64,000 nt of DNA, taken from the NCBI GenBank assembly GCA_963575745.1, contig CAUYUJ010018070.1, positions 151,258 through 215,257 of the forward strand, read 5' to 3'. The stretch is from Prorocentrum cordatum (lineage: Eukaryota > Sar > Dinophyceae > Prorocentrales > Prorocentraceae). Under the pieces are notes generated by a model. It was given only the letters and a program-made list of their open reading frames with translations. It was not told the origin of the DNA and did no database searches. Below, one piece after another: positions 30,955-63,324 of the stretch. Numbering within the stretch: the stretch's first letter is position 1; every line of letters begins with the position of its first letter. A program made the position numbers and the translations under genes.

Positions 30955-31185
30955 ATAAAACGACGGCGACCCTGTTCGGGCGGCGACCCTGGGGGGGCAG
31001 TGAGCAGGGAGGGCCTCCTCGGAAGGCTCGAAAAAAGCCTCGGGCCTGCCGAATTTTGGAGGCCTCTCTGGCCAGGGCGTCTCGGAAAAGGTTGCGAGAA
31101 CGTGTCAAGTGGGAGCCGTTATCGTCGCAGGTGGGGCTTCAACAACTGGCATTTGACAACAAGCCCGCGCTCGAGCGGGAGCCTT

Positions 31186-31205
31186 AATCCAATAGCCCTT
31201 ATAAC
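31186..31205 (+). repeat. Left terminal inverted repeat of the giant element
   Basis: TAATCCAATAGCCCTTATAA. Similarity to the other end continues less perfectly through CTGCGACGA and into the first near-palindrome. Confidence 0.9.
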
Positions 31206-31220
31206 TGCGACGAGGCGACG

Positions 31221-31287
31221 ATCGAAAGCAGTGCCCCGGCACTGCTTTGAACGCGTTCAAAGCAGTGCCCCGGCACTGCTTTGAACG
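31221..31287. repeat. Left pair of subterminal near-palindromes
   Basis: Arms GTTCAAAGCAGTGCC and its reverse complement, spacer CC, at 31256-31287. A slightly decayed copy lies at 31221-31252. The same structure occurs near the right end and in the middle of the element, and nowhere else that I saw. Confidence 0.9.
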
Positions 31288-31403
31288 TATGATATGATGA
31301 TATGATGATGATTATGATTGATGATGATGATGATTTTTCCAGCGTACACTGTCCGCAACTGCGGCAATCAACATCATGTTCCACTTGCCCGCAACTGCGG
31401 CCA
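31288..31403. repeat. Left subterminal spacer with GAT tract
   Basis: ATGATATGATGATG-type repeats (31288-31334) are followed by the first two dodecamers (about 31345 and 31389). Confidence 0.75.
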
Positions 31404-33389
31404 TCACCAACGCTGCCCCTCGAAGCTCCACGGAGGGCGCTCGGCAGGTCGCCCGCTCGAGCCCCACTCGACTTCACGCTGAGGAGGCGAGCCCTCAGGG
31501 GCATTGTCCGCAACTGCGGCATGATCAGAGGGCCACCACTGCGCGCCATCAGCGCCCCATTCGCTCGAGCTCCAGTCCCACCAGGACCAGCCCTGCCATC
31601 TCGTGGCGGGACTGCGCGCCTCCCATGCGCCGCTGCCGCTGGCGTCCCAGGACCCAGCCGCCACTGCGGCACAAGAAGGGGTCGCATCGTCGCCGTTGGC
31701 AGCTTGCGGCGGTGGCGTGTTCCCAGCTCGCTCAGCCCCAGCGTCTCTCCCCGCAACTGCGGTTCCCATCTGGGGTCGGACGCCCTTCCCCGCAACTGCG
31801 GTGTCCGCGTAGCTGCCCTTCTTGCCGCCCTTCTTGCCGCCCTTCCTGCCGCCCTTCCTGCGTTCCAACCTCGCGGCGAGTCTTTCAGGTGACCTGCGGC
31901 ACGTATTGTGCGTGAAAGCCACCAGAGGGAAGTGCGCTCCGTGCCTCGCCCTGCCGAAGGCGCCATGCCATATCTTGTCGTCGAGGTTGCCCTGCTTCAC
32001 TCTGAAGGGATGGCGCACCCAATCGTCGCGTTCCCTGCGCGCCATCCTTTGCTCGAACTCCGCAACTGCGGTCAAGGATTCGCCAGATGGCGTCAGGAAG
32101 GCGCGCATCTTGTTTTCAACGGGCTCAGCCTTGGGCACGTAAGTCTGAAGCATCTTCCCAGGGCCATTCGTGTAGTCGAAGACAGGGAAAGACGGATCAT
32201 GCTGGGTCGTCAAGAATCCGCCCTCACGGTCGTGCAGAACACTCAGGCCATGGTGAAGCTTGTACTGCCCAGGACAGTTTATGAACAAAATCGCCATGCT
32301 GTCTGCCCTGGGCTGGCCGCCTGCTGTCTTCCAGGGGGTCCACGCGGCGACGTCCACAGTCAGGCCGCAATTGCGGCACCAGGACACAAGCTGGAACATG
32401 CACATGTTGAAGTCCCCCATGCAGACCTTCACGTCCCATTCCCTGACGTAGGCGACGAACCAGTTGTAGAACTCATGGAGCTTCGTGACGCCCCAGTCTT
32501 GGTTGGCCAAGCTGTGGTGGACGTGCACCGCCATGACGTTGAAGGAGCCCCCCAAATGGGTCACGGCCTGGTCCAGGTGGACGCGCACCACCATCGCCCT
32601 GGAGTACTTGTTGTGCAGCTTTGGCGCAGGAGCCTCCGCAACTGCGGACTGTTTCTTCTTCTTCTTCGTTTTGGACTTCTCCTGCTTGTGGAAGAGTCTC
32701 GCAAAGTCTACGTGTTCAATGTGGCCGCCACTGCGGTCCCTCATGCCAACAAGGAGGGTCCCTGATGGCTCGCCGCCCTTAACGCACAGGTAGTTGTATT
32801 GAGTCCGACTCCGAAACCTATCGTCCGCAACTGCGGCTGCACTGTCCCTCGCGTCGTGCTCCCCACTGAGTACCGCGCAGGTCTCGTCGTCGCACTCGCA
32901 GAGGGCGATGATCTGGGCAGGGTTCGCGCGGAGCTGCGCCCACTCGTCCGCGCGTTGCGTGGGTCTAGCTGCAGTCCCTCCGAAGTTGGCCACGTAGAAG
33001 CCGACCCGTCCCGCTTCGAACTCCGTTTTCTCCTCCCATGCGTCGACAAGAGCTCTTTGTTTTTCCGACAGATTGCTTGTCTCGATGATGGGCACCCGTT
33101 TCCAGGGTCTCCGCGACGACAACACTCTCGGCATGTAGGAGTCATGTGCTGCCGCAACTGCGGCTCCCGCACCTCCCCGGGACTCAGCCTCGTCAGCGGA
33201 GGCAGCCGAGGACGCGACGGTGCTGTCGCCATCTTGCGTCCGCTGGTCGTCGTCATCATCCGCAACTGCGGCTTCCTCGTCTTTGCCTCCCTCCTCCTCC
33301 TCAGCGTTGTGGATGAACACCGTTCTGGCGAATCGAGGTCCACGGTCCATACTCCCTGAGGATGCGCTCGGGCGCGCGGGCGGCCACAT
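31404..33389 (-). CDS. EEP-fold (endonuclease/exonuclease/phosphatase-like) cargo protein
   Basis: A 661-codon frame from the first ATG (33389); the frame is open 30 codons further upstream. After an acidic N terminus it shows the ordered landmarks of an EEP nuclease: VANFGG near residue 135, IIALCECDDE with the metal-binding Glu near 165, VHVHHSLANQDWG, VCMGDFNM with Asp/Asn near 326-328, and TTQHDPSFPVFDY with the terminal His near 397. The core catalytic residues therefore seem present, though the family is divergent. The C terminus has KGGKKGGKKG basic repeats and a Trp/Ser-rich tail. It is the last gene of the leftward cluster. The domain cuts or trims nucleic acid or phosphoesters in known families; its role in the element is inferred only. 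Dodecamer copies give AVADD-type inserts. Confidence 0.8.
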   Translation of the reverse strand: MWPPARPSASSGSMDRGPRFARTVFIHNAEEEEGGKDEEAAVADDDDDQRTQDGDSTVASSAASADEAESRGGAGAAVAAAHDSYMPRVLSSRRPWKRVPIIETSNLSEKQRALVDAWEEKTEFEAGRVGFYVANFGGTAARPTQRADEWAQLRANPAQIIALCECDDETCAVLSGEHDARDSAAAVADDRFRSRTQYNYLCVKGGEPSGTLLVGMRDRSGGHIEHVDFARLFHKQEKSKTKKKKKQSAVAEAPAPKLHNKYSRAMVVRVHLDQAVTHLGGSFNVMAVHVHHSLANQDWGVTKLHEFYNWFVAYVREWDVKVCMGDFNMCMFQLVSWCRNCGLTVDVAAWTPWKTAGGQPRADSMAILFINCPGQYKLHHGLSVLHDREGGFLTTQHDPSFPVFDYTNGPGKMLQTYVPKAEPVENKMRAFLTPSGESLTAVAEFEQRMARRERDDWVRHPFRVKQGNLDDKIWHGAFGRARHGAHFPLVAFTHNTCRRSPERLAARLERRKGGRKGGKKGGKKGSYADTAVAGKGVRPQMGTAVAGRDAGAERAGNTPPPQAANGDDATPSCAAVAAGSWDASGSGAWEARSPATRWQGWSWWDWSSSEWGADGAQWWPSDHAAVADNAPEGSPPQREVEWGSSGRPAERPPWSFEGQRW

Positions 33390-33716
33390 GCTTGCGTCTT
33401 CGCGTGCGCCACCTCGAGCCACGGTGGCTACGGAAATGGATCGTGAATGGGCATGGGGTCGGATGGAGGGAGGAGACAAAGAGGATTCGAGGAGTGGCAG
33501 AAGGAGGGCGAGGACTCAAAGGAACCGAAAGAACAACAAATGGACTGGCGGAGAAGCAGAAGGAGGGCGACGATTGCAAGGGACTGTGAAAGGATTATTT
33601 TCACAGCAGCAGGAAGACCGCAACTGCGGTTTTGCCTCATCTCCTGCCCGCGCGGGAGCCGCTTGGAAAAACAACTTCCCTCTGGACTTCCTGTGGGTCC
33701 GCAACTGCGGCCTGCA
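33390..33716. other. Spacer between the EEP and transposase genes
   Basis: Purine-rich GGAGG/GGAAGG sequence (33460-33590) and two dodecamers (about 33617 and 33701). No gene. Confidence 0.6.
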
Positions 33717-36700
33717 TCACGCTAGGGCTGGGATTACCAGCGCCATTTGCCCTCCCAGGGTTCTCACTGTTTCCGAATGCACGAACTGCGACAGCGCCGA
33801 ACGGTTCCCAGACGCCGCGTCGTTCGCGACTTTTTGCAGCCACCCAGCAAACGTGAGCGGCCATTGCTCCTTGTGCTGCTTGCACATCTCCTCGTCCCAA
33901 TGCGTCTTGAACCATGCCCACTCCCCCCTCTGCTCGTCTGAGAGGACGCCTTTTCCGCGAGCCAGGCGATCCAGAGCTGCCATCCTGTTTTTCTTGATCT
34001 TGAACTCCTCGGGATTCCACTGCGCTAGGGCGTGTTTGTTAGCCAAAGCCGTTTCCACCGCAACTGCGGCCTCCTTCTTTGCCCTCAAGGCGGCCTCGGC
34101 CTCTCGAATCTGCTTCTTGAGATCGTGCAACGCCTTCGTCCTGTCGTTCGCTTCCAGAGCCAGGCGCCGCTTTTTCGCCACCACTGCGGCTTCGTGGTCT
34201 CGCTGGGCAGTCAACGCTCGTAGGACCTCGTTGTCCTCCCGCGCCAGCTCTCTCAACCGCTTCTTTTGTTTGTGTCGTTGCTGTCGGCAATCCTGCGCTA
34301 GTTTCTCCATGCCCACTTGGCGCAGCATATCTTCCGCCTCGCGGAGCGTTTCTGCCAAGGACGTCGCCACTGCCACCTGCTCGGCCGCCTCTGCGTCGAC
34401 CACGCAGTCCATGGATACCGAGGATCCTTGAGGCCCAGGTGCCGCAACTGCGGCATCGCACTGTTCCGCAAGAGCCTCGGCCCACGAGGCCTCCTCTTGC
34501 TCTTCGTCCTCCTCGTGCTCCTCGTGCACCTCCTCCTCCTCCTCCTCCCCGCCCTCCTCATCGCCCTCCTCGTGGCCTGGCTCCTGGCCTAGCGCTTCGT
34601 CGCCGAGCTTCTCCAACACGGAATCTGTGGCGTCGTGTTTCTCGTATTCGTGTATGAGACGCAGCACGTCATTGTAGGACCATTTCAAACGTTTCTGCTC
34701 GCATTCTTCCCTCACCTCCGCGACTGCGGTGTCCACTTTTGCTCGCAGCCCCCCTGCTTCCCAGAGTTCCGCCGCCTCTCGGCAAATCTCGAGATCTCCT
34801 GACTTGTCGAAGGGCGCTCGAATTCCCACTTTCAGGAAACCTTTCGCGGCGTCCAAGTGCAACTGCACATCCTCCAACACTGACAGCATCAAGTCGGCGC
34901 AATCGGAACGCCGCAACTGCGGCACGTGCTTCCCCAACGCCATTTGCTGCACCAGCGCTTTGGTCTCGAGGGCAATGTACCGGCGCTTCACGTGCTGGTT
35001 CAAGTCCGTGTCCACGGGCTGCGCAACTGCGGTCGTCCCCCCGCCGTGAATGATCAGCACGTAGCCGCGCTGCCAGGCGAGTCTCCGCACAGCGTCTGCT
35101 TTGTGCGGGGAATGGTCGTCGGCCATGAGGATGCGCCACTTTCCCCGCAACTGCGGGTCGTCGGGCCAGGCCCGCAAGTGCCGCTGCAAGAATGATACAA
35201 CGTCGTCTGCGCGGTAGGACCCCTTCTCGGACGTCGCCGTGCTCACCCAAGACGGATAGCCGCGACTGCGGGCATGTGCGGCCAAGCCCTCAGCGATGAC
35301 AGATCCCCCCTTGAACATTAGCTCCGCCGGCGGTGGTCCGCAACTGCGGATGTCCTCCGCGTCGCTCGACACCGTCAGGTTCGCTGTCCACCGAGCCCTG
35401 CTGTCGTCATGCGCCTCGACAAGCGGGACAATGCCACCCTTCACAGCCAAGGTCGGCTTCGAGGCCGACGACGACTCGTTGTGGTGAAAGGGCGACTGGT
35501 CCCAGTTCAGGATGTGCGGGTCGTACCCCAGAAGCTCCTCAGCAGCTGCGCGGACCCTGGCCACGTTCAAGATCATAGTCTCAAAACGAGATTGGAGCAA
35601 CCATTTTGGCACCTTGTACTTGCGGTTCGGCTTCTTCATGCTCAGGCCGTAGGAGCGCCGCCACTTCACCCACCACCGAGGCCGCAACTGCGGCACCATC
35701 GGTTTGCCTCCCCGCTTCATTGTCTCCACGCAGTAGTCCGCGACGAGTTGCTTCGCCTTCGTAACCAGCAGGGATTGGGAGAACCTGGCCAACATCTTGG
35801 GCCTCTCCTCCGCAACTGCGGTTCGCTTGGCCACCGCCTTCCAGTCCACGGAGTACCTCATGTGGGACCACCACTCGTACAGAGCGGCTTCCAGCCATGG
35901 AGCCTTGTTCGGGCGCCCTTGGTTGCCCCGCGCGCGGCGTCGGCCATGCACGCCCGCCGTGCCATGTCCACCTTGTGTGCGCCAGTTTTGAAACCACTTG
36001 GAGACGGCCTGGCGCTGCTGGACGACCCCCATGCCCTTCGGCCACGTGAACCGCCCGCAAAAAGACGCGATTGAATTCCGTGGCAGAACGCCCTCGCCCA
36101 TCCAACCACAACTGCGTGCGTGCGCCTCCAGTTCTTTGCAAACCAGTTCGCGGTCTCTGAGCATGTGCGGGCACACGCGCCGCTTCTGTTCCGCAACTTC
36201 GGGTTTTGGGCGTGCGCTGGCCAGTGCGTGCGCCCTGATCTGCTCCTCCTGCAACGCCTCGGGCATAGCCTCAGCCATGGCAAGCAATATACCCATGTCC
36301 TGCACGCCCGTCTGCCACTCTAACGCCGCCATGAGAGCGGGGCGTGGCGCGCTCGCCTCTCTCGGCGCCTCTGCTGGTTCGCCCTCGCCCTCGGAGTCGT
36401 GCAGGACCATGGGTCCAGCAGGGCCGCTGGCCCCGCAACTGCGGTACGCCCGCACCTCCTCCAAGGTTAGTTCCTGCGTGACAACGAGCATGTCGTGCAA
36501 CCACGGTTCGTCCCAGCGGCGCACCCCGAAATCGTACAGTTCCTCCCGAAGCCATTTGCGCGTCTCGGCATTTTGCGGTTTCTGCAACATCATCGCCATA
36601 AGGTCAATGCCGCAGTTTCCATCGCAAACAGTCCCTAGGACCCATTGTCCCAGAGGACCGTAGAACCTGTTCAACGCGTCCGCCCCCTCAGAGCACACGC

Positions 36701-37832
36701 CACCCACCGCAACTGCGGCCACCCAGTGGCGCACCTCATGGAGAGGGTTCTCGGGAGTCACGGGCCTGAGTTCCACCGTTGTCCATTCCCCGAACAGATC
36801 CTCAGCAGCGGCGAGTACGCACGCCACGCCGTCGACGGCGCATGGCTCAGTGCACTTCTCCTTTGCCCAAGGCATGTAGAAGTCAAGGAGGTCCTTGCGG
36901 TTCTCGCCTTCCCACACGTAAGGTCGACGCCCGAACCGCAAGGCAAACAGCATGAAAGCTGAATACCCTATGTAGGAATTCTCGGACAGAATCTGCCTCA
37001 GGAGAGCCATCACGACGTCAGGCACCGTCGCCGCCACTGCGGCCTGGATCTTTGGCGCGTCTTCCACAGGTACACCTTTCTCTGGCGCCAGGGGTGGCGC
37101 CGCGACTCGTGGCCGCAAGGCGTCGCCAACAGGCGCCGCAACTCGTGCTGCAGCCTTTGGGTCTGGGCACGGGAAGAATGCGACCTGCGTCTTCGACCAG
37201 TTCTCTGGCAGCGGCCGCGCTGGTGGCAAGCGTGCTGGAAGTGGTGTGTCTTTGTCCGCTTCCACTCCCTCAGGAGCTTCAACCGCAACTGCGGTCTCCT
37301 GCGCAGCAGGCGGGTCTGGTGTTGCGTGCACTTGAGCTGGAGGAGCTGGGGGGACTGCTGCTGCGGGTGCTTCGGGCACAGGGGCTGCTGGAGGTTTGGG
37401 TTCTGCGGGTGCTTCTGGTGCTGGAGCTGCGTGTCCTTCTTGCGCAGGAGCTGCGAGTTCTGCTGGTGTTGCTGGTGCTATGTGTGCAGGGGCCGAGGGA
37501 GCCGCAACTGCGGTGCCGCCTGGAGCCGCAACTGCGGGGGGTGGCGTCGCGCCCGGTCGCCAAGCAGACGGCCGCAAATGAAAGCGAGGCGGCTCAACAA
37601 GGCCGTACTGCGACGCGGGCCACTTCGCTAGGCACGGAAAATCCGCACATGCGTGCACCTTTATCTTCTTGGGGCACGGAACGCCGCTACTGCGGCCCAA
37701 GATGTTGGCGAGCCCAGTGGTGCCATACTTCGTTTTCCTCGGTGCGCAGCCGCTGTCGTAAGGGAGCCACTCCACCTCGAAATGCGTTCCGTCCTCCTCG
37801 CCATACCATGTCCGCCCCACGGGAACATCCAT
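33717..37832 (-). CDS. DDE transposase, pogo/Tc1-mariner-like (DD35D), with OTU-like segment
   Basis: 1371 codons from an ATG at 37832, far longer than the usual 350-600 aa of pogo-type enzymes. Residues 1-250: Pro/Ala-rich. About 270-450: a domain with VLGTVCDGNCGIDLMAMML, whose DGNC resembles the OTU cysteine-protease signature. About 550-740: basic, HTH-like region (WKAVAKR, RRSYGLSMKKPNRKYK). Catalytic core: HILNWDQSP (Asp 778), ILMADDHSPH (Asp 905) and AVAQPVDTDLNQHVKRRY (Asp 941). Exactly 35 residues separate the last two Asps. Residues about 1100-1330: acidic stretch then a Lys/Arg/Glu/Ala-rich coiled coil. All catalytic residues are present, so I expect it to be active and to recognise the element's ends. 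More than fifteen dodecamers lie inside the gene, one of them within the DD35D spacer. Confidence 0.88.
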   Translation of the reverse strand: MDVPVGRTWYGEEDGTHFEVEWLPYDSGCAPRKTKYGTTGLANILGRSSGVPCPKKIKVHACADFPCLAKWPASQYGLVEPPRFHLRPSAWRPGATPPPAVAAPGGTAVAAPSAPAHIAPATPAELAAPAQEGHAAPAPEAPAEPKPPAAPVPEAPAAAVPPAPPAQVHATPDPPAAQETAVAVEAPEGVEADKDTPLPARLPPARPLPENWSKTQVAFFPCPDPKAAARVAAPVGDALRPRVAAPPLAPEKGVPVEDAPKIQAAVAATVPDVVMALLRQILSENSYIGYSAFMLFALRFGRRPYVWEGENRKDLLDFYMPWAKEKCTEPCAVDGVACVLAAAEDLFGEWTTVELRPVTPENPLHEVRHWVAAVAVGGVCSEGADALNRFYGPLGQWVLGTVCDGNCGIDLMAMMLQKPQNAETRKWLREELYDFGVRRWDEPWLHDMLVVTQELTLEEVRAYRSCGASGPAGPMVLHDSEGEGEPAEAPREASAPRPALMAALEWQTGVQDMGILLAMAEAMPEALQEEQIRAHALASARPKPEVAEQKRRVCPHMLRDRELVCKELEAHARSCGWMGEGVLPRNSIASFCGRFTWPKGMGVVQQRQAVSKWFQNWRTQGGHGTAGVHGRRRARGNQGRPNKAPWLEAALYEWWSHMRYSVDWKAVAKRTAVAEERPKMLARFSQSLLVTKAKQLVADYCVETMKRGGKPMVPQLRPRWWVKWRRSYGLSMKKPNRKYKVPKWLLQSRFETMILNVARVRAAAEELLGYDPHILNWDQSPFHHNESSSASKPTLAVKGGIVPLVEAHDDSRARWTANLTVSSDAEDIRSCGPPPAELMFKGGSVIAEGLAAHARSRGYPSWVSTATSEKGSYRADDVVSFLQRHLRAWPDDPQLRGKWRILMADDHSPHKADAVRRLAWQRGYVLIIHGGGTTAVAQPVDTDLNQHVKRRYIALETKALVQQMALGKHVPQLRRSDCADLMLSVLEDVQLHLDAAKGFLKVGIRAPFDKSGDLEICREAAELWEAGGLRAKVDTAVAEVREECEQKRLKWSYNDVLRLIHEYEKHDATDSVLEKLGDEALGQEPGHEEGDEEGGEEEEEEVHEEHEEDEEQEEASWAEALAEQCDAAVAAPGPQGSSVSMDCVVDAEAAEQVAVATSLAETLREAEDMLRQVGMEKLAQDCRQQRHKQKKRLRELAREDNEVLRALTAQRDHEAAVVAKKRRLALEANDRTKALHDLKKQIREAEAALRAKKEAAVAVETALANKHALAQWNPEEFKIKKNRMAALDRLARGKGVLSDEQRGEWAWFKTHWDEEMCKQHKEQWPLTFAGWLQKVANDAASGNRSALSQFVHSETVRTLGGQMALVIPALA

Positions 37833-38207
37833 GAGCGGTCGCGTGGCGAACGACTCGGGCCGGGCACTCGGCTGCGGGCTACAGAACTAGGAAGAGGGAG
37901 GGGAGGAGGGAGGAGCAACTGAAGACGATGCGGAGGGGCGAAGAAGGAGGTACTTTTCAACAACGCCCGCGCGGAAGCCCCAATCATCGCGCGCACAGGG
38001 TTTCGATGCTTCACTCCATGCTTCTCTAAGAAAAACGCTCGCCCACACAAGTTGGCGCACTAAGGCGTGCACCCGTGGAACACCCTAAACCTTCCGCCTG
38101 CCTCCTCACACCGCCTCGCCCTCCGCGTGTTCACGCGCACCCAGCCACCCCGCAACTGCGGGCACTCAGTAGCCCCACCGCAACTGCGGCCCATACGGCT
38201 TCGGGCC
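37833..38207. other. Spacer upstream of the transposase gene
   Basis: About 375 bp with a GGAGGGAGG patch (37890-37915) and two dodecamers near 38151 and 38178. It probably holds the transposase promoter; no recognised promoter motif is visible. Confidence 0.5.
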
Positions 38208-39206
38208 TCAGTCGAACAGACTGGGGATTTGGAGCTCGAGGTAATCCAGAGCCGCTTGCTTGCGCTGGTGCTGCGTCATGCCCTCCCACTCGTAGTCGTA
38301 GCCCTTCACCGACTGCGCCGACTGCCACTTCTTCTTTGTAAGTTTCTTCACATCCATCTCGATCCTTTTGCCCTTGTTGGCACACTCTCGCGTGATGGTC
38401 GCGACCCAAGCGCCCTTGAAGTCCCAAACGACGGTGAAGCCAGAGCCGCTCCCCTGCGCCACGAGGGGGTCGACCTCCTTTTGCTTCGCCAGCGGGGTGG
38501 CAGGGTCAACCGCCGTTGCCCAGTCCCTGTCCGCCACTGCGGCCTCGTCCTTGTCGCCGTCGCCGATGTCGGGGACACCGCCGAGGCTCACGTCGTCCAC
38601 GATCATGTCGATCAGCCACCCAAGGTCTGCAGCGTCCAGCCACAACGTCCTCCGCTTGAAGCTGGCCACCCGCACGTTTCGAACGGCCGTGTCGTGCGGA
38701 AACTTCATGGGGCTCTTTGCGGGCATCTGTACAGAGTGCACAGTGGCTATGGCCGACTCCACGGCCTCGCCCCTGGGCAGGCCAGTAGCCGCCGAACGCG
38801 TTCCAGTCTTCTGCTTCTTGGCGCTGGTCGGGGTCGCTGCCTGCTTCTTCGTGGCGTCCGTGGAGCTGACCAGGGCCGACATGGGGTCATCTGCTTCGTG
38901 CCCCGCGTCGCCGTCGCTCTCATCGTCCGCAACTGCGGCGCCGCCCTGCTTCGCGACTTCTTTCTTCAGCGCGTCCCAGGCCTTGGAGGCCTTCAAGGCC
39001 CCTGCGGTCGGTTTACCTTTGGCGCACACCTTGAGCAGCCAAGGCTTTTGCATGTTCACGTGCACGAAAGTTATCTCTCCGAGGGGCCATGCGTGGAGCA
39101 CCTTGACATCCTTTTCGGGGACGGGGGTGGTCTGCGCAAGCCAACCTCCACGGATGCACAAGACCTTCTCAACGCACACAGGGCTCCATTCGCTCGAAGT
39201 CGGCAT
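38208..39206 (-). CDS. Unrecognised cargo protein, 332 aa
   Basis: The ATG at 39206 is the first in frame; upstream the frame runs into the palindrome region. The sequence has a basic, low-complexity middle (TPTSAKKQKTGTRSAAT) between two ordered-looking parts: an N-terminal EKVLCIRGGWLAQTTPVPEK, and a C-terminal region with RRTLWLDAADLGWLIDMIVD, FTVVWDFKGAWVATI and KRIEMDVKKLTKKKW. Two internal dodecamers give GGAAVADDE and DEAAVADRD. I know no family for it. The Lys-rich patch could bind DNA or direct nuclear import, but that is a guess. It is transcribed in the same direction as its neighbours. Confidence 0.7.
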   Translation of the reverse strand: MPTSSEWSPVCVEKVLCIRGGWLAQTTPVPEKDVKVLHAWPLGEITFVHVNMQKPWLLKVCAKGKPTAGALKASKAWDALKKEVAKQGGAAVADDESDGDAGHEADDPMSALVSSTDATKKQAATPTSAKKQKTGTRSAATGLPRGEAVESAIATVHSVQMPAKSPMKFPHDTAVRNVRVASFKRRTLWLDAADLGWLIDMIVDDVSLGGVPDIGDGDKDEAAVADRDWATAVDPATPLAKQKEVDPLVAQGSGSGFTVVWDFKGAWVATITRECANKGKRIEMDVKKLTKKKWQSAQSVKGYDYEWEGMTQHQRKQAALDYLELQIPSLFD

Positions 39207-39920
39207 GTGTGCTACTGCGCTGGACACAGCCGCAACTGCGGGCAAGGCGGGGGTGCGGGCAGTGGGGCCGCGCGCGGTTGAGCCAGATGGCGAGCTGAAC
39301 GCCTCCCTGGAGGGCCTCCCTCGGTCCCTGCGATCCTCGCGCCTCCCTGGAGGGCCTCCGCCCTCAGGGTGCTTCAAAGCAGTGCCGGGGCACTGCTTTG
39401 AAGCATCTGTGGCTTCAAAGCAGTGCCGCGGCACTGCTTTGAAGCACCCTGAGGGCGGAGGCCCTCCAGGGCCTCCGCCCTCAGCACAGGGCCCTCCAGG
39501 CCCTCCAGGGCCTCCAGGGAGGCCCTCCAGGGCCTCCAGGGAGGCCCTCCAGGGCCTCCAGGGCCCTCCAGGCCCTCCAGGGCGGACGCCCTCCAGGGCC
39601 TCCAGGGAGGGAGGGAGGGAGTGAGGAAATGAGTAGTTTCGGCTTCCAGCTTGGGAGGAAGGGGAGAAAGGAGGAGGAGAGAGGGAGGAAGTGGAGGAAG
39701 GGCGAGGGAGGAGAGGGAGAAGGGAGGGAGGAGGTCCGTTTCGAACCTCCGTGCTCGATCGTCAGCGGTCCGCTACTGCGGCATCAGCAAGTGACACTGC
39801 AAACTACACGAGCGCTCCGCAACAGCGGTCACGCGTGCGCCCCCCCTTCGGCCTGTTGCCCGCAACTGCGGTCACGCGAGCAAGCCGCCCTGACTGCCGC
39901 CACTGCGGCTTCTGAATTAC
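39207..39920. other. Spacer with minisatellite and central palindrome
   Basis: A CTCCAGGGCCTCC minisatellite (39297-39368 and 39450-39612) surrounds the internal palindrome pair. GGAGGGAGG purine DNA follows (39605-39735), then four or five dodecamers between 39770 and 39905. Confidence 0.7.
39340..39475. repeat. Internal palindrome pair within a larger palindrome
   Basis: Two near-palindromes with arms CTTCAAAGCAGTGCC lie at 39372-39403 (spacer GG) and 39413-39444 (spacer GC). The flanks CGCCCTCAGGGTG and CACCCTGAGGGCG continue the symmetry outwards, so roughly 39340-39475 forms one large cruciform-capable palindrome centred near 39408. It duplicates the signal found at the element ends. 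Confidence 0.85.
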
Positions 39921-42347
39921 TTAGAGCGACATCTTCCCGCTTTCGTCGAACCCTTTCTTCGATTTCTTCGGCGCGGGCTGGCCCGAAGGCTTCCCTTTGG
40001 CCCTCTTGGCCGCGTCCGTCTTCCACGTCTCCTCGGCCGCCTTCTTCTTCGGTGCGGTTTTGGGTCTCGCCTCCCACAGGAGCTCTTCTCCTTTCTTCAC
40101 GGCCGTGGTATTCACCAGCACAGGGACATTCACGGCGAGCACGACCCCGCCTGTCCCAGGCACGCACACCGCCAATTCTTTCGTCTCCAGCTCCATGTTG
40201 ATGCGCGCAACTGCGCTTTCATTACGGCTGTTTCTCTGCTGGATCTCCTGTTCCGTGACTCTGTTGACTGCCCAGAAGACGTGCATTGTCTCTTGCGCAT
40301 CCCACTTCCATGCTCTCAACCGCACATCGTGGTCAGCCACGTCGGCGGGCGTCTTGTCCGCAGGCGGCTTGAACTCGGGGTGCAAGTAGAAGGTCGTGGG
40401 CGTGGCCCCATTTGGATCTCCTTTCACCCAGACTTGCACGGCCACCCTCTCGGGGTGCGTGCTTGCGGCGTGCACCTTGGATGCCTTTGGGACGCACGGC
40501 CACAACTCGATGCATTTTTCGTCGTTTGCAGCGGTTGCCTTGACGGTGCGTTTCTCTGTGTCAGCGTCTTGCAACACCTCTACTTGCGCTTCCGCAACTG
40601 CGGACATGTGGCGCGCCCAAAGGCACAGCAACACTGCGCTGACCAAAGCAGGCTCCCGCCCCAGCTCCTTCGCTGCCGCTGAACGCCTCCATTCGGCGAT
40701 TGGCAAAGGGAAGGATCCGCGTGGAATGGCCGTCGTGTCCCTGCTGCGCTGGTGGTTCGTTGGTAATTGCGTCGTGGGGTCAAAGGAAATGACCGTCGGC
40801 ATCAACTCGCGCTCCTCTGCGGAAGCCTTTGTCTTCCCCGCCACTGCGGGCTCATTCGGTTCTGGGCGCGGCAACGCGTTGAAATCGAACCAATCGGGCT
40901 TCCCGCCTCCGACTCCCACTTCGCCGAGGGCCTTCTCAAGGGCGTCCCGATTGGACTTCGGCTCCACCTTCCCCGTGGCCTCCGCGCAAGCGCGGAGGAG
41001 CGCCTGACGATGTCCTGGGATACTTCGTTCCTTGAAGTTGGTGTCCTTCAGGTACTGTATGAAGCCGTCTGCGGTCAGTATGCACAGGTTCGCCTTGAAC
41101 CCGATCGCCTTCTCAGGGCCCATGCCGTCGATGGCCTTGCTCAGCGTGAACAAGTACAAACGGAGAGCCGAGTTCATGTCGATGAGGAATTCTCGGAACT
41201 CCTTCTTCTTCCACGATTGTTCTGGGTCAGGGCACCACACAGGAGTGTCAACGCCCCTCTTCCTCGTAGGCGCGTTCCTGTAGCATCGCATCACCACGGC
41301 AACCTTGACCCACGGCACGTCGTCGGGAAGCTCGCTGGCTGCCCCGAAGGCACCGAGCCGAAGGGCCCTTCTCCTGGAGTTCACGTAGACCTCGCAGAAC
41401 TGGAGCAGCAAGGGGATGAACTGCGCTTTCGTGCTCCCGAGCCCAACAACGAACGAGAACAGCTCAATGAAGTCTGGGTCCTGAACGACTCGATCGAGTT
41501 CGTGCATGACGGAGAGCTTGACCTTTTCAAAGGCAACCTGATCCGCAACTGCGGCGTGCAGCTCCGCGTCAACAGCCTTGCACAGAACACGGAGCGCGGT
41601 GAGTTCAGTCGTTCGCAACGCAAAATCGGCTCCTTTATTGAGGGACTGGCTGATGAGCGAAGCACCAGTGGGTTCCTCGTCCATGATTTTCCAGCTAAGC
41701 ACTTCCATGAGCATACCCCCCTGCACGAGTTTCTTAGCGACAGGGTCATGTTCCGCCACTGCGGCCATGTCGAGATTGCCGTCCTTATCGAGCACGCGCT
41801 TCAGCCTCGCGCTCTCGTCCTCCGTGAACTCCATGCCTTGGGGGATGGGCCACTTGGCTCCCAGGGCGCACGCCCGCAACACGAGGCACAAGTGGGAGTG
41901 CGAACACGTCCCATACGCAACGTCTGTTCCGCAACTGCGGTCGAAGCACGCAGCGAGGTGGCCGGTCGCTTTTTCCAGATTGTACTCTGTGTACGTCTGG
42001 AACTTCGGGTCCTCCTTTTTTCTCAGCACCAGCTCTTGTGCTGGGTACATCTGAACGCAGACACCTTCGTGGTCAGCTTCGGCTTGCGTGAATCCAGCCA
42101 GGAAGATTTTCACAGCGAGTTCCCGAACCCTTTCCTGCTGAGGGTAGTGCCCGCCTCGGTTGCCCGTGTGCGGGGCGAGCATGAGCACAGGGAGGCGCAC
42201 CTTGTCCCCTGTCCTGAATCTAGACCTCAAGGCGTTGGCCCTCTGAAAGATCCCTTGCGTTCCGCCTGGAACTGCGGCTGTCTCGTCCGCCACTGCGGCT
42301 TTCTTGTCCGCCACTGCGGCATTATCTGTGCCGACGCTGTCGTTCAT
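39921..42347 (-). CDS. Unrecognised cargo protein, 808 aa
   Basis: The ATG at 42347 is the first in frame; the frame is open about 15 codons upstream. The N terminus has dodecamer-derived AAVADKKAAVADETAAV. A conserved-looking region follows: RTGDKVRLPVLMLAPHTGN, HYPQQERVRELAVKIFLAGF, EYNLEKATGHLAACFDRSCG, TCSHSHLCLVLRACALGAKW and MLMEVLSWKIMDEEPTGAS. This combination reminds me of multi-copy uncharacterised dinoflagellate proteins, which I cannot verify. The middle is helical (LLQFCEVYVNSRRRALRLGA) and the C terminus is Lys/Pro-rich (APKKKAAEETWKTDAAKRAK), suggesting nucleic-acid contact. No catalytic motif was recognised. Confidence 0.72.
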   Translation of the reverse strand: MNDSVGTDNAAVADKKAAVADETAAVPGGTQGIFQRANALRSRFRTGDKVRLPVLMLAPHTGNRGGHYPQQERVRELAVKIFLAGFTQAEADHEGVCVQMYPAQELVLRKKEDPKFQTYTEYNLEKATGHLAACFDRSCGTDVAYGTCSHSHLCLVLRACALGAKWPIPQGMEFTEDESARLKRVLDKDGNLDMAAVAEHDPVAKKLVQGGMLMEVLSWKIMDEEPTGASLISQSLNKGADFALRTTELTALRVLCKAVDAELHAAVADQVAFEKVKLSVMHELDRVVQDPDFIELFSFVVGLGSTKAQFIPLLLQFCEVYVNSRRRALRLGAFGAASELPDDVPWVKVAVVMRCYRNAPTRKRGVDTPVWCPDPEQSWKKKEFREFLIDMNSALRLYLFTLSKAIDGMGPEKAIGFKANLCILTADGFIQYLKDTNFKERSIPGHRQALLRACAEATGKVEPKSNRDALEKALGEVGVGGGKPDWFDFNALPRPEPNEPAVAGKTKASAEERELMPTVISFDPTTQLPTNHQRSRDTTAIPRGSFPLPIAEWRRSAAAKELGREPALVSAVLLCLWARHMSAVAEAQVEVLQDADTEKRTVKATAANDEKCIELWPCVPKASKVHAASTHPERVAVQVWVKGDPNGATPTTFYLHPEFKPPADKTPADVADHDVRLRAWKWDAQETMHVFWAVNRVTEQEIQQRNSRNESAVARINMELETKELAVCVPGTGGVVLAVNVPVLVNTTAVKKGEELLWEARPKTAPKKKAAEETWKTDAAKRAKGKPSGQPAPKKSKKGFDESGKMSL

Positions 42348-43062
42348 ATCTGTGCCGACGCTGTCCGCCACTGCGGCCCAAAGCTCCGATATGGCGGACT
42401 ATGGCACGACGTCCGTCGCTCAGGGTGGAGGCGTGTGTGCCAGGAGCCCAACGACCTGCTGAGCCGAATGCCTGCGGACGACTGAAGGCTCAGTTTTAAT
42501 CCAAAATATCGGGCGAGAGCTTGGGGGGGGTGCAGGCTGGAGGAGGGAGGGGGGTGCAAGCTGGAGGAGGACGAGGAGGGGAAGGGGAAGGACAGCTAGG
42601 ACGGAAGTGGCGGGGGGATGCGGCCTGGAGGAGGACGAGGAGGGAGGAGGGAGGAGGGAGGAGGGAGGAGGGAGGAGGGAGGAGGGACGACGACGACGAC
42701 GACTGCTGACGACAGACGACAGACTTGACGACGACGACGACCGACGACGACTGCTGACGACAGACGACAGACGCGACGACGACGACGGCAGCGACGACGA
42801 CGAGGACGGACGACGACGATGATGATGACCCAGCGCGCGCACACTTATTGCAAACTGCGGCTTCGCAACCGCGTGCTCTCCTATTATACGCAACCGCAAC
42901 TGCGGCTTCGCAACCGCAACCCCGCAACTGCGGGCTATCCTACACCGCAACCGCAACACCGCAACTGCGGGCTATCCTACACTGGGATGCACTACGCAGG
43001 CAGCAGGCGCCCAGTAGTACCGAGCTCTGTTCCGCAACTGCGGCTCCTCGGTCTTGCCGCAC
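42348..43062. other. Spacer with GGA and GAC microsatellites
   Basis: GGAGGAGG/GGAGGGAGG tracts (42535-42690), then a GACGACGAC tract (42690-42830). A dodecamer cluster lies at 42850-43090: six copies, several separated by CAACCGCAAC words. Confidence 0.75.
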
Positions 43063-44898
43063 TCACCGCTCGTCCGCAACTGCGGCAGATCGCGCCTCTT
43101 CGTGCTTCCGCTTGCTCGCCCGACTTGCGCGTCCGTGGCCGACGAAGACGATGTTTTGGTGGATGCCCTCGCACCAGTGCGTGCTGAAGGTCTTCTCGTT
43201 GAGCTCCTTCTGAACGACCTTGCCGATTGGGGGCAGCGCTGCCAAGTGGAGCTTTTCTCTGACTCCGCTACTGCGGTCAGGGTCATCCTCCCACTTGGGC
43301 ATGTACTTCGCTGGAACCCAGCGCCGAGAGATGATGGAGTCGCTTGTTCGATGCATCCAATCAGGGAGCCACTGGGGATCGTTCTTCGACGGCCTCCCTG
43401 CAAAATCAATGTTGTAGTCCGCAATGCGCACGTCGCACGGGCCAATGGGGAGGACGTAATTCGGATGCATGACGCGTGTGCCCTTCACAATGCCTCCGAA
43501 CAGGGCGGGTCCAGCCCTGAACACCACCCCCACCGGGCAGGTGCAGCTGGCTCCGCAACTGCGGCCCAATGCTGCGAGCTGCTCAGGCGGGATGTCAAAC
43601 AGGCCGCACAAGAACCGCACATCATTTTTATGGATGGCAGCAACCGCGTCCTTGAAGAAAGCTGGATGCCACGCTTGTTGTTCTGTTTGCGTGATCTTGT
43701 GTTGGAGACGTTCGGTGACTGCGTGTCTGGACACGACGGCAAAACGGATCACCGCGGCAGGATTCATCTCGGAGCCCTTCAGGCGAAAGCTCAGGATCGT
43801 GACGGCGTGGGTGGCCCCAACAACATGACCCGCAACTGCGGTCTCTGCGATGATGTGCGGGCGCACGAGCACCAGGCCCGTCTCTCTGAACAGGGGAACC
43901 GTCGTCCAGTAAGGCTCCTCGGAGGCGTTTTTCATAGTGACAGCGTTGTCGATGGCACTCCTGAGTCCAACGCGAACGTCGTAGCTGCAAGCGCCTTCGA
44001 CGTTCCCCGTGCGGAACAGCTCGGGGTCCCATACGACGAAGACGACCGCCGCAGTTTGGTGCAAGATGCACCTGAAGACATCTTCCTTTGTTGCCACCTT
44101 CGTGATGACCACCACGTTGAACACCAAAGCGATGGTGGACGGAACCCGATTGCCGTCTGCTGTACGAAGGAATCCTTCGTTCCACTTGGGGTGTTCCCCA
44201 AAGTATTTTATCCCTGGAGGGGACCTGGTCCGCTGCTTCTTCCGCGGTGCTCCCGCATCTTCCCGCAACTGCGGTTCCGACGGAGGCCCCGCGCGACCCC
44301 GCGACTGCGGTTCTGACAGCGGCGAGTCTTCCGTGGGAGGCGGCCTTTTCCTCGGCCGCGAATCGGCCGAGGCGGTTGTCTCGGCGGCTTTCTCCTGGGA
44401 GGCGGCCTCGTCTTCGGGTTGGGCGCCTCGTTTGGACTCGGCTGCGAGCAGCACGGCCGAGGGCGCGCTGCTCCCAGATGAGCCGCGCGCGGCACCTGGC
44501 TCGCCGGCCACCCCCGCAACTGCGGTCTCGGTGGCGGCTCCCGTCACTGCTGGTTGGTCCTGCTGCTTCGTCGGCGTCTGCGCCCGAGGCCCCCATTTTG
44601 CCTTGGGGGTCAAGTGCGCCCTGCGCAACTGCGCCTCTTCGCGCCTCCCACCAGCAGAGCTCCCACTCGCAGCGCTTATCGGCGGCGGCGGCCGATATTC
44701 GATGGCCGACCGCGAGGAGCTAGACGACTGCGGGGAGGCCTCGCGCGGCGGTCGCTCGGGGCTTCCGCTACTGCGGTCCCCCGTCGGCTCCGCGACTGCG
44801 GCATCCGCGGCAGCCCCTTGCACGCCGAGCCTTTCCCGCAGTTGCTGCTTCAGCTCGGCGAACCGCTTGTCGACCTCGGCTTTGCGAGCTGGGTCCAT
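43063..44898 (-). CDS. Unrecognised cargo protein, 611 aa
   Basis: A clear ATG at 44898 (MDPARKAEVDKRFAELKQQL, a helical start). Residues about 30-210 are Ser/Pro/Arg/Glu-rich and probably disordered. From about 225 an ordered part follows: GIKYFGEHPKWNEGFLRT, IALVFNVVVITKVATKEDVF, AAVVFVVWDPELFRTGN, VRPHIIAETAVAGHVVGATH, VRFLCGLFDIPPEQLAAL and CDVRIADYNIDFAGRPSKND. The RFLCGLFD and RIADYNIDF pieces vaguely recall the EEP-like cargo protein at 31404 but lack its acidic motifs, so homology is only a suggestion. At least seven dodecamers fall in the gene. No stop, frameshift or intron is seen. Confidence 0.72.
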   Translation of the reverse strand: MDPARKAEVDKRFAELKQQLRERLGVQGAAADAAVAEPTGDRSSGSPERPPREASPQSSSSSRSAIEYRPPPPISAASGSSAGGRREEAQLRRAHLTPKAKWGPRAQTPTKQQDQPAVTGAATETAVAGVAGEPGAARGSSGSSAPSAVLLAAESKRGAQPEDEAASQEKAAETTASADSRPRKRPPPTEDSPLSEPQSRGRAGPPSEPQLREDAGAPRKKQRTRSPPGIKYFGEHPKWNEGFLRTADGNRVPSTIALVFNVVVITKVATKEDVFRCILHQTAAVVFVVWDPELFRTGNVEGACSYDVRVGLRSAIDNAVTMKNASEEPYWTTVPLFRETGLVLVRPHIIAETAVAGHVVGATHAVTILSFRLKGSEMNPAAVIRFAVVSRHAVTERLQHKITQTEQQAWHPAFFKDAVAAIHKNDVRFLCGLFDIPPEQLAALGRSCGASCTCPVGVVFRAGPALFGGIVKGTRVMHPNYVLPIGPCDVRIADYNIDFAGRPSKNDPQWLPDWMHRTSDSIISRRWVPAKYMPKWEDDPDRSSGVREKLHLAALPPIGKVVQKELNEKTFSTHWCEGIHQNIVFVGHGRASRASKRKHEEARSAAVADER

Positions 44899-45563
44899 GG
44901 CGTGGCCGCGCGCGGCCCCCGTCCGACGGGGGAACTGCGGCCGGCTTGGGAGAGGAACGGCAACGAGGGAGACGGCGGGGATGAGGACGAGGAAGGCGAA
45001 GAGGAGGATGGAGAGGACGCGACGGAAGAGGATGGCGCGAAGAGCTCAGACGAGGGTGAAAGGAGCAAGGGGACTGCGACGAGGATGACGGGGCAGAAAC
45101 GGAGGAGGAGGAATCAACAAAGTCCGCAACTGCGGCCCTCGGGGGGGAAAGCGACGAGGACGACGGGAAATGACTCGGCCAACGGAGGCGGGCTACGGCC
45201 AACGGAAGGAACTGCGACGAGGAGGAAAGGCGGAGGGAGGAGACTGCGACGAGGACGACGGGGAAGGGGCGACGAGGACGACGAACAACTGCGGATCCAT
45301 CTGTTTAAGTACCTGTCTCCGCAACTGCGGCCGCGCTAATTAACGTCACGAGTGCTTCAACGGAGGTGATGCGCGCCCGAAGCACCTAATTACAGCGGTC
45401 AGTCGTGGGAGCGCCGCAACTGCGGCCAAGCTGTATGAAGTCGCTAGAAGGCAGCGCCGCAACTGCGGCCGAAAGCGCGCATAGTGAGTCAAACGAGCGC
45501 GGCGTCACGCGATCGGTTTCCGCAACTGCGGTTCCATGGCTGCGCAATCCCGCAACTGCGGTG
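44899..45563. other. Spacer, purine-rich with dodecamers
   Basis: GGAGGACGACGG-type tracts (44960-45290) and eight or so dodecamers or partial copies, the densest between 45290 and 45550. No gene. Confidence 0.6.
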
Positions 45564-46730
45564 TCAAGGCTGCGCGGACCACCGCGGTTGCAGCTGCGCC
45601 CCCTTGCTCGCGTCGAACCGCCCAGGATTCGGATGGGCGTGCAGCATCTTCCAGAACGTGAACGTTCCGTGGCCATCGCTCTTGCCGAGACCTGCCCTCG
45701 GGCCCCGCACGGGATGCGAGTGCGGCTCCACCTCATACGTGTTGAACTTCGGGCTAGACCAGGATGGGTGGACGCGAATGCCCGAGCCGTCGTCGCGGAT
45801 GAGGACGAAATCCCACTGGGGCAGAGGGATTCTTTGCGCCTGTCCTCTGTCCACCCCTTTCGTGTGCCTCATGTTGTCGAGACTGCTAGGGCACGGGCGG
45901 CACTCGCAGCGGACCAACCCGCGACTGCGGTCATTGTCAGGGCCGCACACGACGCGCAGCATTGTAGGTCCATCCATCTGCGCGACCATCTCCAGCCAAG
46001 ACCACGGCACTTTGACAGTGTGGTCCCAGTCCCAATCCCTGTTGTCCTGCGCCTTCCCCTTTGCGCGGTACTTAAGGATCTTCGAAATTTCCTCCGCAAC
46101 TGCGGTACCTCCGAAGACGGGCGTGCGGCTGCCGAAAGGGTTTTCTCGGTCTTCGTACTCGTCTCGGAACCACTTCAAGGCCGCGTTGTGCTGCTTATAA
46201 TTGCCGTTCCAGTTCGCCCTGAAGTTCTCGAAGAATTCCAACTTGAAAATTGGCAGCGGCTCATTGCGCACAATTTGAAACAGCGCAACTGCGCCTTGTT
46301 CTTCGCGCCCTGGGGGAAGCAGGGGACCGCCTCCTTTGCCCGCCGCTGTTGCGGCCGCGGGCTCCGCGGCAGGAGAACCTGCCGAGGCACTCGAGCGGCC
46401 ACCTTCCCATGCATTCCACCAGCCACCCTCGTCGTCCCACCAGCGGGCGCCCTCCATTCCCCAACCCTCGCATCCGTTGCCGCCCCATCCGCCGCCCTCC
46501 CATCCGCGACTGCGGTCACTTCCGTCGCCGCCATCCTGCGCTTTTCCTCTCCATCCGCCAAGAGAATCTCCGCCGCCCCAGCCGCCACTGCGGTCACCTC
46601 CGCCGCCGTATCCGCCACTGCGGCCGCCCCAACCCCCACTTGTTCCCCAACCGCCGCCGCTGCTCTTTGAAGAATCCGCAACTGCGGCCCGTGTTTCCTC
46701 TTCCGCTTTGTCATCCCACCCTGCACGCAT
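45564..46730 (-). CDS. Unrecognised Gly/Trp-rich cargo protein, 388 aa
   Basis: First in-frame ATG at 46730. The frame is open 68 codons upstream, but that part is a translation of GGA-rich repeat and I exclude it. Residues about 20-130 are built of Gly-Gly-Trp and Gly-Gly-Tyr repeats (SGGWGGRSGGYGGGG), partly contributed by dodecamers. The remainder looks ordered: FFENFRANWNGNYKQHNAAL, ALKWFRDEYEDRENPFG, DWDWDHTVKVPWSWLEMVAQ, RLVCGP-like VVCGPDNDRS, RIPLPQWDFVLIRDDGSGIR and HGTFTFWKMLHAHPNPG. No family is recognised. It is the first gene of the leftward series, so it lies nearest the right end of the element. Confidence 0.68.
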   Translation of the reverse strand: MRAGWDDKAEEETRAAVADSSKSSGGGWGTSGGWGGRSGGYGGGGDRSGGWGGGDSLGGWRGKAQDGGDGSDRSRGWEGGGWGGNGCEGWGMEGARWWDDEGGWWNAWEGGRSSASAGSPAAEPAAATAAGKGGGPLLPPGREEQGAVALFQIVRNEPLPIFKLEFFENFRANWNGNYKQHNAALKWFRDEYEDRENPFGSRTPVFGGTAVAEEISKILKYRAKGKAQDNRDWDWDHTVKVPWSWLEMVAQMDGPTMLRVVCGPDNDRSRGLVRCECRPCPSSLDNMRHTKGVDRGQAQRIPLPQWDFVLIRDDGSGIRVHPSWSSPKFNTYEVEPHSHPVRGPRAGLGKSDGHGTFTFWKMLHAHPNPGRFDASKGAQLQPRWSAQP

Positions 46731-47528
46731 CTCTGCCCCGACTGCAGGCCGCGGAGGCGGGCGCGAGCCCGCCCAACCGCCGTGAAACCTACCGTCGGCG
46801 CGGGCTTGAGCCGAACGTGCATGGAGGAGGAGGATGAGGAGGAGGAGGGTGAATGTGAGGAGGATGATGCGTTCCTGGGAGGTGTGCCTTCGCGTGCAAC
46901 ACAAGAGCCCTGAGAATTCCTGAGGCCCCTCCAACAGCCAAGGACGCGGATGACAAGAAAGTCGAGAAGATTGGGAACCGATTGAGGATTAAGAGGCGTG
47001 CGACGAAAGGGATGATGATGACGAAGAGGAAGATCAGTGAAGGGGAGGAGCGGACAGGAATTATGGAGGAGTGATAGCAGAGGAGGAAGAGGGGGAAGGG
47101 GGAGGAGGAGGAGGAGGAGGAGGAGGGAGAGGAAAAGGGGGAGGAGGAGGAGGAGGAAGAGGAGGAGGAGGAGGAGGAGGAGGAGGAGGAGGAAGAGGAG
47201 GAGGAGGAGGAGGAGGAGGAGGAGAGAGGAGGAGGACGACGACGACGAGGAGGAGGAGGAGGAGGAGAGGGAGAAGGAGAACGGGGACAGGAGGACAAGG
47301 ACGGAGAAATATAACAAATGAGGGGGAGGAGGCGGAGGAGGAGGAGGACGAGGAGGAGAAGCAGGAAGAGGAGGAGGAGAGGGGGGAGGAAGAGTGCGCG
47401 TGAGACTGGGAGAACGAGGTAATTAATTAGAGAGGGAACGGGGGAGGAGGGAGGACAAGGAAGAGCATACAGCGACGAGAAGAGGAGAAGGAACAGACGA
47501 AGGCTCCTGCTGATCGCATTTCCGCATC
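46731..47528. repeat. Right subterminal spacer with long GGA microsatellite
   Basis: Non-coding DNA to about 47040, then roughly 350 bp of GGA/GAGGAGGAA purine repeat (47055-47400). No dodecamer lies here. Confidence 0.8.
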
Positions 47529-47600
47529 GTTCAAAGCAGTGCCGGGGCACTGCTTTGAACGACTGGTGATGTTCAAAGCAGTTCCCCGGCACTGTGTTCC
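47529..47600. repeat. Right pair of subterminal near-palindromes
   Basis: Arms GTTCAAAGCAGTGCC with spacer GG at 47529-47560, and a decayed copy at 47571-47600 (GTTCAAAGCAGTTCC left arm). They mirror the pair at 31221-31287. Confidence 0.9.
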
Positions 47601-47610
47601 ATCGTCGCCG

Positions 47611-47630
47611 TTATAAGGGCTATTGGATTA
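47611..47630 (-). repeat. Right terminal inverted repeat of the giant element
   Basis: TTATAAGGGCTATTGGATTA, the exact reverse complement of 31186-31205. The flank beyond begins CTCTCAAAG. Confidence 0.9.
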
Positions 47631-48166
47631 CTCTCAAAGAAAATGCAGCCAGCGTCGAGGCGAGAGATCCCAGAATCGCCCCCCATAGGCCAACACCAAT
47701 GACTCTCTACAACCATTAATATCCGACGACGGCGACGACGATGGAGACGTGGAAGCGGCCGGACCCCGAGACATTTGTCAAGAGGGGGGGCGAGGGCAAA
47801 TCTGCTCAGAATCAGTCCCCGGGCCCCTCCCGGGGTCGAACCTGACACAAATTTCCCGAGCCGCGTCCCTAACCTTGGCGACGAGGAGGCCCACCACAGG
47901 CCAACTTCCGTTGCCTCGGCTGGCCCTCCTCTGAGACGACGACGATGGAGACGCTTGCAGCGACGACGACGTCGACGGCGACGGCGGAGGCGGCGACATC
48001 GGCGCCGACCGCCGTCGACCGCCGGCCCGACTGCCCGGCCCATCCGACTGCCCGACGGCCGCGGGCGACGGGGCCGAGCCCCTCCGCGCGCCGCGGGCGG
48101 GGCCGCGCGAACATGTCCACGGCGCAGTCGTAGTCCTCGGGCGGCCGGGGTGCCAAGGGCGGGGAC
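47631..48166. other. No gene recognised; GAC/GTC trinucleotide patches
   Basis: GACGACGATGG words recur at 47725, 47938 and 47965. Otherwise GC-rich unique DNA. Confidence 0.45.
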
Positions 48167-56995: not shown

Positions 56996-57119
56996 GCCAG
57001 CAGGGGGGCGCCGATTTCCTTTTTGTGGCTGGTTGGCCGACTAGCTGGCTGGTTGATAGCTGGCTGACCCTATCTGGGCCACCGAGCCCGCGACCGGCGG
57101 CCGACAGGTGAACGAGCAC

Positions 57120-57862: not shown

Positions 57863-57931
57863 TTGCCACGACGCGAGGGGGTCTGGGACAGGCTGAAGGA
57901 CAGGCTCAGGGCCGGAGACATCGACCTGGAA

Positions 57932-59880: not shown

Positions 59881-59884
59881 GGCG

Positions 59885-60385: not shown

Positions 60386-60470
60386 AGATGAGATCAAGGT
60401 GACAGGCTGGAGGTCAGTCAGGGAAGGCGTTTGATCTCAATCCCCCCTCAATCTCCTTATCGCCCGCAGG

Positions 60471-61745: not shown

Positions 61746-61746
61746 A

Positions 61747-63322: not shown

Positions 63323-63324
63323 CT

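Follow-up and report, generated by a model that had tools for sequence, protein, structure and literature searches.

An oriented dodecamer array in a dinoflagellate transposon

A 64,000-nucleotide stretch of Prorocentrum cordatum DNA (GenBank assembly GCA_963575745.1, contig CAUYUJ010018070.1, positions 151,258 to 215,257 of the forward strand; 60.5% G+C), hereafter the window, contains a DNA transposon of about 16.4 kb (31185..47631, minus strand). The element has six long uninterrupted open reading frames (ORFs), all on the minus strand, and an array of 71 exact copies of one dodecamer (31353..46687), each reading CCGC-AGTN-GCGG on the same coding strand; as RNA this is CCGC-AGUN-GCGG, a 4-bp stem with an AGUN loop. 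The motif is guarded as a frame-independent nucleic-acid signal, more tightly than the proteins that it overlaps, and is kept even in one lineage where the genes are broken and constraint by codon position is absent.

The dodecamer CCGCNACTGCGG and its reverse, CCGCAGTNGCGG, were counted on both strands of the whole window. All 71 exact copies of CCGCNACTGCGG lie on the plus strand (starts 31353 to 46676) and inside the element; CCGCAGTNGCGG is absent from the plus strand, and neither orientation occurs in the window outside the element. An earlier note on this DNA had counted 75–80 copies, which was close, the exact dodecamer numbering 71 and the 10-mer core CGCNACTGCG 75, all plus. Its observation of a single orientation held, and so did its argument against chance: a third-order Markov model fitted to the element with its motifs masked predicts 0.03 copies on the plus and 0.01 on the minus strand, and a chance origin is rejected. 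Near misses are scarce on the gene strand, with five copies carrying one mismatch and 12 carrying two next to the 71 perfect ones. Three of the 12 are base-pair swaps in which the outer pair has changed from C-G to G-C, giving GCGC-AGTT-GCGC (40205..40216, 44623..44634 and 46283..46294, all minus strand). The spacing of copies is slightly more even than random (standard deviation of gaps 173 versus 214, P 0.03), the largest gap being 705.

The element is bounded by inverted termini (TAATCCAATAGCCC / GGGCTATTGGATTA) with TA at both ends, and thus has the terminal inverted repeats expected of a Tc1/mariner–pogo type transposon. Its first gene, O6 (456 aa, 45564..46934), has an N-terminal half rich in Gly, Trp and Arg and is preceded on its 5' side by 697 bp without a single dodecamer (46935..47631). 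It is followed by O5 (611 aa, 43063..44898), O4 (816 aa, 39921..42371) and O3 (408 aa, 38208..39434). The C-terminal residues 585–777 of O4 appear SET-like in a modest AlphaFold2 (AF2) model, and its N-terminus may, to the eye, be ParB-like; the AF2 model of O6 was unusable. The ORF DDE (1371 aa, 33717..37832) is transposase-like, with a D-D-D triad identified by eye in NWDQSPF, MADDHSPHK and QPVDTDLNQ at residues 776, 903 and 938; its Pfam DDE_1 score of 12.7 bits lies under the cut-off of 22, short of a recognised DDE transposase domain, and its profile had only two weak matches among solved structures (E 0.19 and 0.98). The last ORF, EEP (691 aa, 31404..33479), has no Pfam match; from an MGDFN motif spotted by eye, we take it to be endonuclease/exonuclease/phosphatase-like. 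O4, O6 and EEP each had no match among solved structures. In the account of the P. cordatum genome (4.15 Gb, 59.7% G+C), introns are given for 83.7% of genes, at 9.8 per gene on average (PMC10666404), so that intronless genes are a minority there. A subterminal palindrome, TTCAAAGCAGTGCC..GGCACTGCTTTGAA, lies near both ends of the element (31222–31290 and 47529–47590) and has an internal copy (39345..39471); it is also present in the relatives C7777 and C84 and, in altered form, in C15. Outside the element, ten ORFs lack a Pfam match above the cut-off, and long degenerate arrays of GGCC(A/G)TCTTGG-type units extend from about 56400 to 64000, one strand carrying most of them.

Within the six ORFs the dodecamer occurs in all three codon phases (33, 13 and 5 copies), encoding xAVAx 33 times, RSxG-type peptides 13 times and PQxR-type peptides five times (four PQLR, one PQSR). 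A further 20 of the 71 copies lie outside these ORFs, and the density is higher between them (5.9 per kb, within the element) than in them (3.9 per kb). The three phases and the higher density between ORFs show that this is not a peptide motif; given the three peptide types and the copies outside ORFs, the amino-acid sequence is a by-product. Related proteins at 31–80% identity comprise four relatives of the transposase (the window's own excluded) and thirteen of O4 (the near-identical P0006 excluded), among which P0008–P0011 match O4 with similar scores and identities, and P0002 and P0007 are probably on one contig. These relatives are rich in AVA, RSxG or PQxR peptides, partly at differing places; the excess over shuffles reaches P ≤ 0.014 in 16 of the 17, the exception being P0018 (P 0.12). 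The DNA of these 17 relatives probably contains the dodecamer as well, to judge from their peptides. P0003–P0005 and P0012–P0014 come from contigs barely longer than the gene, resembling single-gene transcripts. Broadening the transposase search with alignment A1 gave no further relatives.

Strand and distribution in the element family

Across the 4.13-Gb assembly (21,875 contigs) the motif occurs 33,633 times, compared with 5,964 copies of a reversed-pattern control and 5,177 of a control that keeps the stem and permutes the loop. The earlier claim that the array is confined to the element is correct for the window. Seven of the eight motif clusters retrieved (C15, C84, C4, C226, C7667, C17225 and C7777) match this element; the eighth, C3 (L058), shows no match to it and has five copies, three in one orientation and two in the other. 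Eight isolated motif hits (L044–L051) have no similarity to the element.

Besides the window copy we compared C84 (partial; 98% identical), C7777, C7667, C226, C17225 and C15 (about 58–60% identical). Similar termini are present at both ends of C7777 and C15 and at the one end seen of C84 and C7667. The window element and C7777 are each bounded by TA on either side and lie in unrelated flanking DNA, a TA target duplication being tentative on this comparison of flanks. The motif-free 5' end recurs in C7777 and C7667, whereas the empty stretch of C226 is only 335 nt. Where gene order was tested it matches, apart from a single inverted segment of C17225. Of the motifs in all seven family members, the window copy included, 347 are on the gene strand and four reversed; all four lie in the inverted segment with its pieces of O3 and O4, where none is in sense. 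Motif orientation thus follows the genes even there, as a recent inversion, carrying both, would produce. This segment (L067 and L065) covers O3 and part of O4, at sense coordinates of about 9400–11000.

The degenerate pattern “WDQSPFH” matches 329 places in the genome. In 30 loci of three kb, which include C15 and C226 again, 317 perfect motifs are in sense and none in antisense. An alignment of six elements, made without the inverted C17225 segment (and its four reversed motifs) and without the partial C84, has 319 sense and no antisense motifs, the 10-mer core occurring once in antisense, in C226; 42 of its 111 motif columns are private to one lineage. By simple arithmetic, some 329 elements with 40–70 motifs each would explain much of the genome-wide excess. 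With neither density nor orientation evenly distributed, the earlier view of a directional, element-wide signal rather than a simple dyad site is borne out, the orientation tracking the coding strand; as an interpretation it stands in part, and is here refined to a covarying stem common to the relatives of the element.

Among viral contigs, a two-copy motif pattern matched 43 stretches, 41 with two or three copies (unaligned to the element). Two stretches of one contig (L009 and L018, IMGVR_UViG_3300020034_000040) have eight and seven dodecamers as 24-bp coding tandem repeats, apparently by coincidence. An alignment-based search for the transposase in viral contigs matched its pattern in 20 stretches, none of which was confirmed.

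Constraint on the motif and covariation of its stem

With the window copy as reference, the 11 fixed bases of each motif were compared with the other bases in a stretch of about 3 kb around the transposase core. In 25 close copies (the 30 loci minus L069, L070, L077, L092 and L093, which were treated separately), three of 3025 motif bases had changed compared with 924 of 72,069 other bases, the expectation being 38.8 changes, or 34.8 when matched for base and 22.5 when matched for trinucleotide. At fourfold-degenerate motif sites, none of 650 had changed in the close copies (9.7 expected), three of 72 in L070, L077 and L092 (21.2 expected) and two of 26 in L069 (14.2 expected). The N base of the loop drifts, with changes in one of 125, three of 14 and two of five cases in the same three sets. 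Differences in the close copies are spread almost equally over the codon positions (292, 295 and 337), which indicates weak constraint on the protein and strong constraint on the motif.

In the near-identical C84, one of 319 motif bases differs (6.1 expected); C15, the most diverged full copy, has lost more of the motif, with 127 of 735 bases changed (290 expected). The reading frames of C7777 are broken and its divergence is similar at the three codon positions (0.190, 0.216 and 0.207), compared with 0.054 in the motif (36 of 668 bases; about 121 expected); for motifs outside ORFs the divergence is 0.025, versus 0.281 in their surroundings. Likewise, L092 has three stops and differences of 144/170/159 by codon position, and one change among 109 motif bases (13.8 expected; 12 of the 121 motif bases fall in gaps). 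Base- and trinucleotide-matched controls uphold the constraint, the trinucleotide-matched deficit in the five whole-element comparisons being 2.3-fold for C15 and 3.3- to 7.3-fold for the other four. Substitutions in L092 are biased from AT to GC, with 139 A>G and 80 T>C among 473, and the rate of change in C7777 is about twofold higher at A and T sites than at G and C sites. Because the motif is more constrained than proteins that other copies could supply in trans, a signal that acts in cis on the copy carrying it is the simplest explanation, and we infer such a role from these comparisons.

The palindromic part of the motif is a covarying stem with a free fourth loop base. Conditional on the core CGCAGTNGCG in the six elements, the outer bases are C-G 319 times, G-C 22, C.C nine, G.G five, T.G four, C.A three, T-A two, A.C one and A.G one. 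Counted by distinct alignment columns, sites within six columns being merged, this gives 111 C-G, nine G-C, two T-A, four T.G and 13 non-pairs; with independent sides, about 1.4 G-C columns would be expected. At column 10661, which judging from order corresponds to the window's variant at 40205..40216, all five elements with the core there have G-C, and at columns 3247 and 5555 one relative has C-G and others G-C at the orthologous site. Inner pairs 2, 3 and 4 show five, eight and two wobble-type changes (T.G or G.T) and three, seven and eight others, one of those at pair 4 being a T-A double swap. In the loop, A and G hardly vary, T is replaced by C in 25 cases and N is free. Decay at the motif's two CpGs gives 12 C>T versus three G>A, compared with symmetric decay outside the motif (139 versus 142), counted at sites perfect in at least two lineages and in cells with at most two mismatches, 45 gapped cells being excluded. 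A C>T change, unlike G>A, still permits a G.U pair in the gene strand, and this asymmetry is what tolerance of G.U predicts. The predicted folding energy of the 12-mer alone is −5.0 kcal/mol.

Candidate functions and known systems

The orientation with the coding strand, the covarying stem and the motif shared between relatives together suggest that a hairpin in gene-strand nucleic acid, and not double-stranded DNA, is most likely recognised. Our favoured explanation, with a probability of about one half, is a cis-acting, strand-specific hairpin tag that is most likely read in the element's own RNA. Hairpins in this RNA would be many low-cost sites for one RNA-binding protein, either encoded by the element or recruited from the host, which would mark the transcripts lengthwise, over coding and between-gene regions and not at the upstream end. 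A copy marked in this way might continue to be transcribed and to move, for instance because element proteins would be tethered to its locus or long intronless transcripts spared from silencing. A more specific version is offered tentatively and we think it rather doubtful: the transposon would write a mark of self-identity into its nascent RNA, dozens of identical AGUN hairpins recruiting a factor that, in cis, spares this copy the surveillance of long intronless transcripts (or tethers transposition proteins to it), with the hairpins rather than the proteins as the element's most constrained part.

Several observations weigh against a tag read in RNA. Genes and motifs share one strand and the C17225 inversion moves both, which gives no means of telling RNA from single-stranded DNA. 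The 25 close copies are related by descent and their counts are not independent; in 19 of them the stretch is without a stop codon, so that some constraint on their proteins must be allowed for. In L093, the most diverged locus, the window's motif sites are not conserved beyond expectation (41 of 118 bases changed); this locus, which is not in the fourfold and codon-position tallies, carries five motifs at sites of its own, each of them in sense. The inner stem pairs show almost no double swaps. The asymmetry of transitions is small and partly due to common descent, amounting to only 19 C>T versus 11 G>A over all eight stem positions, and is reversed at the innermost pair (two versus five). 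The hairpin is present in the minimum-free-energy fold of 57 of the 71 copies with 15-nt flanks, of 36 with 30 nt and of 27 with 60 nt, and the antisense strand forms the predicted hairpin equally well. Finally, the stem is not extended, pairing at −1/+12 being marginal (P 0.03) and at −2/+13 absent in the 71 window copies.

Alternatively, the hairpin might work in single-stranded DNA exposed during transposition or replication, where a protein would protect, count or orient the strand in the manner of Chi or KOPS. A fixed strand over the element, constraint of a cis type and stem covariation fit this equally well, and DNA hairpins, too, can accommodate G.T mismatches. We nevertheless regard it as unlikely: inverted termini, TA ends and a DDE-like transposase suggest double-stranded cut-and-paste, the motif-free upstream end (in the window element, C7777 and C7667, less so in C226) tracks transcription better than DNA length, and the four motifs of the inverted C17225 segment follow their genes. 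Decidedly less probable is a tag that, through mRNA export, stability or translation, does no more than raise the expression of element proteins. The confinement to the gene strand, in coding sequence and between genes, would suit it; however, a benefit shared in trans predicts constraint no greater than that on the proteins, and the observed constraint is greater, also where genes are broken.

Molecular drive, in which motif-bearing segments are preferentially copied between elements by recombination as with DNA uptake sequences, would account for the excess of perfect copies over near misses and for the patchy, chimera-like differences in L073 and L081. We give it little credence, as uptake sequences occur in both orientations and neither covariation nor a free loop base is predicted. 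In L081 and L073, the differences from the window copy are clustered in one part of the three-kb locus, which suggests that they are chimeras formed by recombination between copies. Sequence-specific protection from mutation, or an artefact of assembly or alignment, would explain without selection why conservation persists in copies with broken genes; it is very improbable given the deficits that remain after trinucleotide matching, the free mutation of the N base within the motif and the pair swaps at orthologous sites. A repeated AVA peptide without nucleic-acid function, for which xAVAx in 33 of the 51 ORF copies and the AVA-rich homologues might speak, is refuted for practical purposes by the 18 ORF copies in other phases with RSxG- or PQxR-type peptides, the copies outside ORFs and the frozen synonymous sites.

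The hairpin tag of our favoured reading seems to be a self-tag of a type that DNA transposons are not known to carry; in the one open library searched, surveyed at the level of titles and abstract openings, we found no description of such a tag in a DNA transposon. If the reading is true, an element-wide cis code of identical hairpins outranks the transposon's own proteins in selection, which would be a new way of recognising mobile DNA as self. It would also provide a natural pair of tag and binder, and a handle on how dinoflagellates, with their large and repeat-rich genomes, tell transposon transcripts apart. With 329 places bearing the transposase signature and about 28,000 motifs above the permuted-loop control, the idea can be tested statistically.

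Each of the known systems resembles the array in part. DNA uptake sequences are short, dense, exact repeats tolerated in several reading frames, and as here perfect copies exceed near misses; the dodecamer differs in its single orientation (four of 351 reversed), its stem covariation and its concentration in a eukaryotic mobile element family. Chi- and KOPS-type signals are short and, like the dodecamer, strictly oriented over long DNA, but they are not hairpins, and no covariation is expected of them. Bacterial REP sequences, which are mostly extragenic, and Rickettsia palindromic elements are hairpin-capable mobile inserts and share with the dodecamer the palindromic repeat, whereas the dodecamer is mostly coding, has one orientation and is lineage-private in 42 of 111 columns.

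The yeast RNase III Rnt1, as described in the source cited, has AGNN-tetraloop substrates in which the last base is free and the third tolerates C, and cleaves 14 and 16 nt from the loop, for which a long stem is needed (PMC13183374). A and G at loop positions 1 and 2 and a free position 4 are found here too. The stem for −14/+16 cleavage is not, the element's stem being 4 bp and not extending, and we rejected an RNase III substrate on the grounds that the stem is too short. For the modification or packaging roles that the earlier note had considered, we found nothing specific in support; none of the six ORFs has a capsid-like Pfam match, and most are without a known fold. In satellite tobacco necrosis virus and enterovirus-E, dispersed RNA packaging signals are reportedly small stem-loops with a shared loop that one protein reads in cis. 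The likeness to the present array lies in hairpins with a common loop scattered over one strand; the difference is that the viral signals are degenerate and belong to RNA genomes, whereas here 71 near-identical hairpins are carried by a transposase-bearing DNA element.

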